DNA from: an uncultured Chromatiaceae bacterium
GTDB lineage: Bacteria > Pseudomonadota > Gammaproteobacteria > Enterobacterales > Alteromonadaceae
Length of the DNA: 27,934 bases
Direction of reading: 5' to 3'
NCBI GenBank assembly: GCA_946481195.1
Contig: CAMLNG010000003.1
Span: forward strand, 1-27,934
Shown here: positions 15,737-16,977 of the stretch, piece after piece
How the letters are laid out: every line of letters starts with the position of its first letter
How positions within the stretch are numbered: the stretch's first letter is position 1
Translations under genes and position numbers: made by a program
Notes under the pieces: model-generated
Told to the model about the DNA's origin: nothing
Database searches by the model: none
The model's input: only the letters and a program-made list of their open reading frames with translations

Positions 15737-15764
15737 TTGCTTTTTAAACCGCGTTGCGTAGAAT
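15737..15764 (+). promoter_or_regulatory. Promoter of spf (Spot 42)
   Basis: TTGCTT (-35) and TAGAAT (-10, 15759-15764) are 16 bases apart, and the -10 box ends 7 bases before the conserved RNA start G at 15772. Confidence 0.75.
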
Positions 15765-15771
15765 CGAAAAC

Positions 15772-15889
15772 GTAGGGTACAGAGGTAAGATGTTCTATCT
15801 TTCCGTAGTTTCAGACGTTAGTCGTTGATTCTACATAGAAAGTAGGCTTATTTAGCCGCCCCACTGCTTGCAGTGGGGCGTTTTTTTTT
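15772..15889 (+). ncRNA. spf: Spot 42 small RNA
   Basis: The first 32 bases (from GTAGGGTACAGAGG through CTATCTTTC) are the same as I recall for E. coli Spot 42. The end again matches, with TTTAGCCGCCCC leading into a perfect 10-bp terminator stem (CGCCCCACTG/CAGTGGGGCG, loop CTTG, 15857-15880) and nine T residues. The middle is different and makes the RNA about 118 rather than 109 nt. In E. coli, Spot 42 is an Hfq-dependent RNA, repressed by cAMP-CRP, that limits expression of secondary carbon-use genes by base pairing. Its place between polA and engB is the same as in E. coli, which confirms the call. Confidence 0.96.
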
Positions 15890-15930
15890 GTCTTTTTCTG
15901 AAAATTAATTAGATTTTTTAGAGTAAATAC

Positions 15931-15958
15931 TTCAAACAATCAAAAATTGCTGTATAAT
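15931..15958 (+). promoter_or_regulatory. Promoter of the candidate small RNA after Spot 42
   Basis: A perfect TATAAT (15953-15958) is preceded 16 bases upstream by TTCAAA, in an AT-rich stretch. The start site is expected at about 15964-15966. Confidence 0.65.
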
Positions 15959-15964
15959 GGCGCT

Positions 15965-16057
15965 GTCTTCTTCGTAAGACACCCTGTTGATTTGAAATTT
16001 ATTGAATAGCTTCTCCCCGTTTGCTATGCCGGCAGTTCTCTGAACTGCCGGTTTTTT
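15965..16057 (+). ncRNA. Candidate Hfq-type small RNA downstream of Spot 42
   Basis: An unannotated unit of about 93 nt has all the parts of a small RNA gene. It has a TATAAT promoter and a 5' hairpin (TGTCTT/AAGACA, 15964-15981). A single-stranded AU-rich stretch (GAAATTTATTGAA) follows, then a C-rich patch (CTTCTCCCC) that could pair with ribosome sites. It ends in a strong terminator: CCGGCAGTT/AACTGCCGG, loop CTCTG, six T residues (16029-16057). No coding frame with a ribosome site is present. It is convergent with engB, which has its own terminator, so the unit does not serve engB. I cannot match it to a named RNA family. Some Vibrionaceae are reported to carry a further small RNA gene downstream of spf; homology is untested. 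Confidence 0.68.
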
Positions 16058-16121
16058 CTTTTTGGAGGTCAGCAAATAATTTGGGGCGTGGACAGGGTCA
16101 CAGGAAAAACAGATTACAGTA

Positions 16122-16151
16122 GAAAAACATCAGGCCGGATCGGCCCGATGT
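16122..16151 (-). terminator. Rho-independent terminator of engB
   Basis: Read on the minus strand, a 10-bp stem (ACATCGGGCC with GGCCTGATGT, one G-U pair) has a 5-base loop and is followed by five T residues, 21 bases after the stop codon. Confidence 0.85.
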
Positions 16152-16172
16152 TGTCAGAATTTTACAGCAAAC

Positions 16173-16805
16173 CTACTCGTCTGAGTGCTCAACAGCGGTT
16201 TCGCCGCTAAACCATCGATCCAGCACTTGCTCCAGTTCGGCCAACCCAATTTTGTTTAATGAGCTGAATGCTTCGACCGTCACATCCCCCATAAAAGCCA
16301 AAGACGCTTCGCGCACTTCGAGCACTGTCTTTTTGCGGGGACCAGGGCTGAGTTTATCGGCCTTAGTCAGCAAAATAAGCACAGACAAACCAGATTGTAC
16401 CGCCCAGTGCACCAGCTGCTGATCCAAGTCCTTTAACGGATGGCGGATATCCATCAGCACCACAATGCCTTTGAGGCTTTGGCGCTTCATCAGATATTCG
16501 CTAAGCGACTTCTGCCACTTTTCTTTGACTTCCAATGGCACTTTGGCAAAACCATAACCGGGTAAATCAATCAGTCTTTTGTTCTCTGCCAGATGAAAAG
16601 TGTTGATGAGCTGGGTGCGGCCTGGTGTTTTACTGGTTCTGGCTAAACTATTTTGCCGGGTCAGCGTATTCAGTGCACTGGACTTGCCGGCATTTGAGCG
16701 TCCGGCGAACGCCACTTCAATGCCAGAATCGTCCGGCAAAGCCCGAATATCGGGGGCGCTGGTCAGAAATCGCGTTTGCTGGTAGTTAAATATTGCTTTG
16801 TACAC
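16173..16805 (-). CDS. engB: Ribosome biogenesis GTP-binding protein EngB (YihA/YsxC)
   Basis: This 210-residue TRAFAC GTPase is needed for large ribosomal subunit assembly. The P-loop GRSNAGKS is at 35-42, followed by SALNTLT. G2 is in [13 protein letters not shown]3 is DLPG at 80-83 and G4 is TKAD at 147-150. The segment [14 protein letters not shown] is typical of the family. The frame extends to a TTG at 16823, but the GTG at 16805 has GGAG 6 bases before it. That start also gives an N terminus ([20 protein letters not shown]) like that of E. coli EngB, so it was chosen. The gene lies opposite polA and spf, as in E. coli. Confidence 0.95.
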
Positions 16806-16977
16806 TTCATACTCCGGACTCAAATTTGGCTATAGTTTAGCGGAAATCAATAATCTGCATAAGTATTGGGATTTTCTATCAGCAGGTTTCGTGTAAAATA
16901 GGCATAAAAAATAGGGTTATTATCTTCTAAGCCTGTTGCAAGTTGGGCAGGGTCACGCAGAACAGAGACAATTAAAC

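Follow-up and report, generated by a model that had tools for sequence, protein, structure and literature searches.

Comparative analysis indicates that positions 15917-16058 of the window (the whole 27,934-nucleotide stretch of DNA under analysis, from contig CAMLNG010000003.1 of an uncultured Chromatiaceae bacterium) hold a real, stand-alone small RNA (sRNA) gene. The explanation that we favor is that 15965-16058 would be the gene of a regulatory RNA of ~93 nt that belongs to a family unlisted so far and lies between polA (usually after spf) and engB. This RNA would act by predicted pairing with ribosome-binding sites and would share its regulator with the gene of a DUF1302 protein. Taken as a whole, we hold this explanation to be reasonably probable, and it is only jointly with the whole that the unlisted status of the family carries this grade.

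Architecture of the Gene

The sequence itself shows the box, the promoter, three hairpins, and two unpaired segments that hardly vary (Table 1). Its engB, 98-99% identical to that of a Rheinheimera MAG (L001) and that of R. texasensis (L002), places the window in a Rheinheimera or a close relative. An earlier, sequence-only reading had described a TATAAT with a TTCAAA 16 bases upstream, a 5′ hairpin at the predicted start, and an open AU-rich stretch, and all of these are borne out: the promoter matches the consensus at 10 of 12 positions and is conserved in relatives, the hairpin is backed by the fold and by paired changes, and the AU-rich stretch is open in the fold. The C-rich patch of that reading, CTTCTCCCC, is present at 16010-16018, to which we can add that it sits inside the loop of hairpin 2, a placement unnoticed earlier; the mean unpaired probability of the loop UUCUCCCC is 0.99. 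The terminator stands as a stem followed by T residues, giving the RNA a U tail, but the stem has 11 pairs and not the 9 first described, and the 20-bp box was missing from the description altogether. For the putative Hfq dependence proposed in that reading, this U tail is the one feature seen.

We infer the start of the RNA at 15965 from the -10 element and the conserved GTC hairpin. From there to 16058 the fold reaches -27.0 kcal/mol versus -13.8 ± 2.6 for shuffled sequences (z -5.0; 0 of 200 as good). The terminator scan found 7 sites versus 2.7 expected; the promoter scan taken alone is at chance level, with 2 found versus 2.3 expected. Of the features of a bacterial trans-acting sRNA, its own promoter and terminator, a non-coding transcript, a conserved unpaired seed, and a conserved secondary structure are found here, and pairing with a target is predicted. 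The neighbor spf has a terminator of its own and engB a terminator-like stem, and conservation, covariation, and synteny agree with the earlier claim of a small RNA gene apart from spf and engB.

Table 1. Features of the sRNA locus and its neighbors in the window
Feature	Position	Strand	Evidence
20-bp box TTTAGAGTAAATACTTCAAA, imperfect dyad TTTAGAGT-AAAT-ACTTCAAA over the -35	15917..15936	+	conservation, recurrence at DUF1302
-35-like TTCAAA	15931..15936	+	promoter match, conservation
-10 TATAAT	15953..15958	+	letter of the window shared, position by position, by 91-100% of 45 aligned sequences
Small RNA, about 93 nt	15965..16058	+	fold, conservation, covariance model R1 (window 86.3 bits)
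5′ hairpin GTCTTCTTCGTAAGAC, GTCTT-CTTCGT-AAGAC	15965..15980	+	fold, paired changes
Open AU-rich stretch	15981..16005	+	near-invariant ACACCCTGTTGATTTGA (from 15979); CCCUGUUGAU, mean unpaired probability 0.86
Hairpin 2, ATAGC-UUCUCCCCGUUU-GCTAT, C-rich loop (putative seed)	16006..16027	+	fold, conservation
Rho-independent terminator	16028..16058 (stem 16028-16052)	+	terminator scan, paired changes
spf (Spot 42), separate neighbor with its own terminator	15773..15888	+	RF00021 match, terminator
engB, convergent neighbor	16173..16823	-	own terminator-like stem 16126-16152 (- strand)

Conservation and Paired Changes in Relatives

A search with engB yielded 80 loci, of which 47 belong to Rheinheimera, Arsukibacterium, Alishewanella, or close MAGs without a placement. 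The gap count leaves out L015, L023, and L079, because these three of the 47 stop short of the gap or break off within it. The sRNA is present in all 44 related loci with an intact gap, and the promoter, hairpins, and C-rich patch, whose conservation the sequence-only reading had made the touchstone of its proposal, are kept throughout. The segment TTCTCCCC occurs in 45 of 45 group a gaps (the 44 loci and the window). When these sequences are aligned, conservation climbs past the spf terminator and drops to background right after the sRNA terminator, with near-complete conservation of the box, the -10 element, the stem of hairpin 1, ACACCCTGTTGATTTGA, and hairpin 2.

Among the 31 distinct close sequences, in an alignment that was fitted to the structure, 95.6% of cells are paired versus 87.2% in shuffles, and 47 cells carry double changes versus 13.7 in shuffles (0 of 500 as many), while structures slid along the alignment pair at only 31-42%. 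Changes on both sides are seen in two of the six pairs of hairpin 1 (six of six in the wider set) and in six of the eight terminator pairs. The wider covariance model, R2, was built on 47 sequences, in which 93.5% of cells are paired and 14 of 19 pairs show double changes. Hairpin 2 is almost invariant, so that covariation says little about it and its support comes from folding.

Distribution across Genomes

The covariance-model search of related polA-engB gaps that had been suggested as a check was run, and it reaches more distant genomes, mostly beside engB. At the family level, model R1 matched 78 of 295 genomes (E up to 0.1). Synteny with engB or polA provides a test independent of the covariance search: the 28 newly fetched strong loci (L103-L130), many from species in the first engB set, adjoin polA or engB, and 36 of the 40 weak places fetched have engB at most 3.1 kb away, among them all 33 with E up to 0.0021. 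At the order level 51 of 394 genomes match (E up to 0.05); among 27 new loci, 12 are beside polA or engB and 10 look like chance, and five (L178, L179, L180, L182, L184) have the sRNA hairpins with neither polA nor engB within 1.5 kb. A Spot 42 search of 197 genomes of the order matched 85 of them at 87 places, and a TTAGCTTCTCCCC-type hairpin occurs in 18 of the 40 gaps looked at, which came from the weaker part of that list.

Outside this range, 28 of the 33 other engB loci (Pantoea, Idiomarina, Glaciecola, Methylomonas, and others) were searched with R1, and none matched at E up to 0.001. A class-level search with R3 matched 9 of 303 genomes (E up to 0.01), and of its eight new places, counted without G001 and G008, none has polA or engB within 1.5 kb. 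Given these negatives, the family is seen in one order only, in the samples searched. Places off polA/engB and lacking the box (L166-168 and L170; L181, 185, 186, 190, 191, and 193-197; and, with R3, L356-362 and 364) were set aside as terminator or chance matches. Separately, we note that G008, G034, G037, and G081 each have two sRNA copies, separated by 2-22 kb and both on the strand that faces engB; polA was seen in G081 alone, next to the far copy (L177).

Comparison with Known Small RNAs

No family in Rfam 15 matches the window at its gathering score. The best match over the sRNA is RsaOG (21.7 bits, E 0.75), and as none fits, any Rfam family was rejected as its identity. Our literature search, whose coverage excluded most subscription papers and the Alteromonas Te101 tables, found no report of the sRNA. 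Alteromonas Te101 has 127 chromosomal sRNAs (PMC5864184), among which members of the family may already stand unnamed. The sRNAs described for related bacteria (CsrB/CsrC, Alteromonas Aln1a-c, and Pseudoalteromonas Pf1-3) carry GGA motifs and bind CsrA (PMC5864184, PMC11882849), whereas the window sRNA has no GGA anywhere and multiple GGA motifs mark the CsrB/CsrC type. ErsA of Pseudomonas aeruginosa shares the polA-engB gap and, by description, a stem-loop, an unstructured U-rich domain, and further stem-loops; it is 132 nt and sigma-22 driven according to PMC8575079, PMC5819304, and PMC8545128, in contrast with the sigma-70-like promoter and different box of the window sRNA. This comparison is one of descriptions, and the R3 class search gave no new member beside polA/engB.

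By place, the nearest published RNA is VSsrna24 of Aliivibrio salmonicida, an sRNA of ~60 nt located 262 nt downstream of spf and reported there as limited to Vibrionaceae (PMC3295665). It makes the precedent cited in the sequence-only reading, a second sRNA gene downstream of spf in Vibrionaceae, a real one. The window sRNA may belong to the VSsrna24 family, which would make it a known RNA with a wider range, a reading that we consider a genuine possibility while leaning against it. Both are sRNAs in their own right between spf and engB, in the same intergenic region and order, and both have a C-rich stretch (PMC3295665). At the level of sequence, where the comparison consists of an 18-nt RACE oligo, the oligo implies CCAUUUCCCCACCUUAGC for VSsrna24 and some members of the present family, such as L179, have UAGCUUUCCCCAUAGCUA, with UUUCCCCA then UAGC in common, but this part of VSsrna24 might just as well form a terminator stem (CCCCACC). 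Against a common family, the length (~60 versus about 93 nt), the distance after spf (262 versus about 76 nt in the window), and the reported Vibrionaceae-only range all differ. Searched with up to one mismatch in 394 genomes of the order, a 17-nt core of the oligo matches once (L228), a match that was rejected since neither polA nor engB is near, and the 18-nt form has none in 12 genomes of one family.

A Promoter Box Shared with DUF1302

We favor an sRNA family of its own, and its promoter offers a lead to its control. Groups a, b, and d have the box TTTAGAGYAAATACTTYAAA with its first base 48-51 nt ahead of the start of the RNA. In group a (Rheinheimera and kin) it is found with at most one mismatch in 45 of 45 loci including the window, in group b with at most four in 16 of 16 (L132, cut by a contig end, is left out), and in group d with at most five at the expected place in 17 of 21. 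In the spf loci of group e, 17 of 18 have it with at most five mismatches and 16 of 18 with at most three; group c has none in 15 (best, six or more mismatches). In six genomes, the box pattern with up to three mismatches occurs at 27 places versus 16 for the reversed control pattern. Six of the 27 are the sRNA genes, six precede DUF1302 genes, three lie upstream of what we take to be a ybgC-tolQ type operon, and 12 are non-recurrent; of the 21 outside sRNA genes, 16 were inspected. The box is probably, judging from its conservation and recurrence, the operator of a regulator. The third setting lies between this operon and a presumed ruvB in three of six genomes (L306, L308, L324), where the box is followed by a conserved CGAGAAAA.

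At DUF1302, the box stands 321-369 bp upstream of the gene, once per genome, in all six genomes (one of the six proteins was tested against PF06980, this domain was found for G027 in the second set below, and the other members were judged by similarity). A second set of 28 genomes, again including G027, held DUF1302 in 27, at 30 places, of which 29 remained after the fragment L413 was dropped. In this set the box, with at most five mismatches, occurs at -309 to -369 in 17 of 29 loci: 8 of 10 in group d, where the two misses are second copies, 7 of 8 in group e, 2 of 7 in group b, and 0 of 4 in group c. The sRNA of group c is without the box, and four genomes of this group are correspondingly without it at DUF1302 also; group b, with the DUF1302 box absent in five of seven, breaks the pattern. 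Two other blocks recur in the DUF1302 leaders of the six genomes (L310, L309, L307, L318, L314, L305). One, present in all six, is GCCTTGC then AAATGATGTAAT, roughly 100 nt ahead of the start; the other, present in five, is an inverted repeat of the AAATC-AACA-GATTT type, about 150 nt ahead of the start. They are possibly promoter and operator.

Predicted Pairing at Ribosome-Binding Sites

The ribosome-binding site of DUF1302 reads GGGGAGA, complementary to the sRNA loop, in 19 of the 29 loci (7 of 7 in group b, 4 of 4 in c, 7 of 10 in d, 1 of 8 in e) and also in the five group a loci printed. Group e lacks GGGGAGA in seven of eight loci; its sites are mostly GGAGA + AAG or similar, with up to 11 nt complementary to UUUAGCUUCUC, the 11-nt run being that of G468, a length reached by 1 of 100 shuffles. 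Loop and site differ together in G008, where UUUCCCCAUA in the loop faces UAUGGGGAAA at the start of DUF1302 and 10 bases match, a length that 6 of 100 shuffles reach. In six genomes (five of group a, and G088) a leader segment of the AAATCAACAG type at about -150 is perfectly complementary to the open sRNA segment over 9-11 nt (shuffles as long, 0-12 of 100); this complementarity is absent in the other 24 of 30 genomes.

Searched across four genomes, the pattern GGGGAGAN{4,8}ATG occurs at 45 places, mildly above the 32 of its reversal, and 30 of the 45 were fetched. The DUF1302 start carries it in four of four genomes (in G221 by coordinates, the start being read separately). GGGGAGA also stands at the start of what we take to be a lipase-like lipoprotein in three of four genomes and of a presumed E1-beta-like dehydrogenase in two fetched, a third place of the same form being unfetched; the latter protein matches Pfam Transket_pyr, and the first 80 residues of the former have no Pfam match. 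Their duplexes were matched by 32, 16, and 1 of 300 shuffles (lipase-like) and by 74 and 28 of 300 (E1-beta-like). Neither gene has a convincing box nearby, the best score being 13.9, for an opposite-strand site in L345; the background has a median of 9.7 and single values up to 24.6, includes the true copy L363, and comes from a matrix of seven boxes only. A same-letter control motif occurs at 19 places and has one recurrent gene in three of four genomes, so recurrence alone is weak evidence.

At the DUF1302 start, duplex energies clearly beat shuffles in three of six genomes (at least as good, of 300: G003 5, G104 2, G221 7, versus G027 43, G001 112, and G004 113), and in 22 of 30 genomes more than 5 of 100 shuffles had a complementary run as long as the longest one observed. 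With these mixed results, we hold blocking of the ribosome-binding site as the likely mechanism, as predicted from the loop, and DUF1302 as the best candidate target, unproved. The trans-acting RNA with a C-rich seed for ribosome sites proposed in the sequence-only reading is thus plausible, with consistent candidate targets, while the pairing stays a prediction whose energies are clear in three of six genomes.

Any UCUCCCC loop pairs with G-rich ribosome-binding sites, and the loop might instead bind a protein, the G-rich DUF1302 site being kept only for strong translation. The uneven advantage of the duplexes over shuffles, the recurrence of the control motif, and the modest excess of 45 places over 32 would fit this alternative, but a constant, unpaired loop complementary to the start of a gene with the same box, and the joint change of loop and site in G008, speak for a seed; we regard protein binding as unlikely, if worth keeping in mind.

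Under the seed reading, a regulator would bind the 20-bp box over the -35, the RNA would be stabilized by its 5′ and 3′ hairpins, and the exposed loop would pair with GGGGAGA-type Shine-Dalgarno sequences and stop translation, with the open CCCUGUUGAUUU segment as a possible second contact or chaperone site. Since DUF1302 has both a box about 320 bp upstream and a complementary ribosome site in many genomes, RNA and target would be co-controlled. A stronger form of this proposal, that sRNA and DUF1302 form one regulon under the regulator of a TTTAGAG-N4-TACTTYAAA box, with the sRNA blocking the DUF1302 ribosome-binding site in a feed-forward loop that several groups retain, that one group lacks as a unit, and that is encoded beside Spot 42, is one that we offer tentatively and think rather doubtful as a complete account.

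Spot 42 and the polA-engB Gap

Spot 42 is the classical sugar-control sRNA and among the best-studied in bacteria. In the window its match to RF00021, at 15762-15887, scores 50.0 bits (E 1.7e-8) and falls short of the gathering score of 80, which is why the window shows no Rfam match; default annotation would overlook the Spot 42 of this clade. It resembles the new sRNA as an adjoining small RNA of similar size on the same strand, but it is a separate gene, and R2 scores over spf places are weak (up to 20.9 bits, E 0.058). The position directly after spf on the same strand would also suit a piece of the spf transcript, whether its 3′ part, an attenuator, or a product of its processing. We reject such read-through as very improbable, because spf has its own strong terminator, the sRNA has its own conserved promoter and box, and the sRNA is kept where spf was not found, in L041 and in G008 (two copies, no RF00021 match). 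That the stretch encodes a short peptide deserves next to no credence: no point in its favor was found in the window's RNA (start codons across relatives were outside the comparison), each of its three frames has a stop codon, no + strand ORF of 40 aa or more is listed inside it, and the stem changes preserve pairing.

The gap and its surroundings hold other candidates. A conserved element of the GTGCAATTGGAATAGTGCTTTC type, followed by a terminator, lies some 250-300 nt after spf in L261, L263, L266, and L294-L297, and a GTGCAATTGGAATAGTGCTTTC-like element follows the sRNA in L274 and L287, perhaps another small RNA of the gap. Its equation with VSsrna24 was withdrawn; the family of G349, with only 12 genomes, hardly resembles Vibrionaceae. 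In L271, L272, L286, and L289, spf has RyhB a few kb away, and a CsrB-type RNA is seen in L271 and L272.

Implications

These findings describe a conserved sRNA family without an Rfam match adjoining the well-studied Spot 42, and the covariance models make this family annotatable. The shared box offers a direct route to the regulator of the sRNA, and the DUF1302 start provides a concrete target for a test. With Spot 42, VSsrna24, ErsA, and the new sRNA, the polA-engB gap appears as a recurrent home of small RNAs, so that their common versus separate origin becomes testable.
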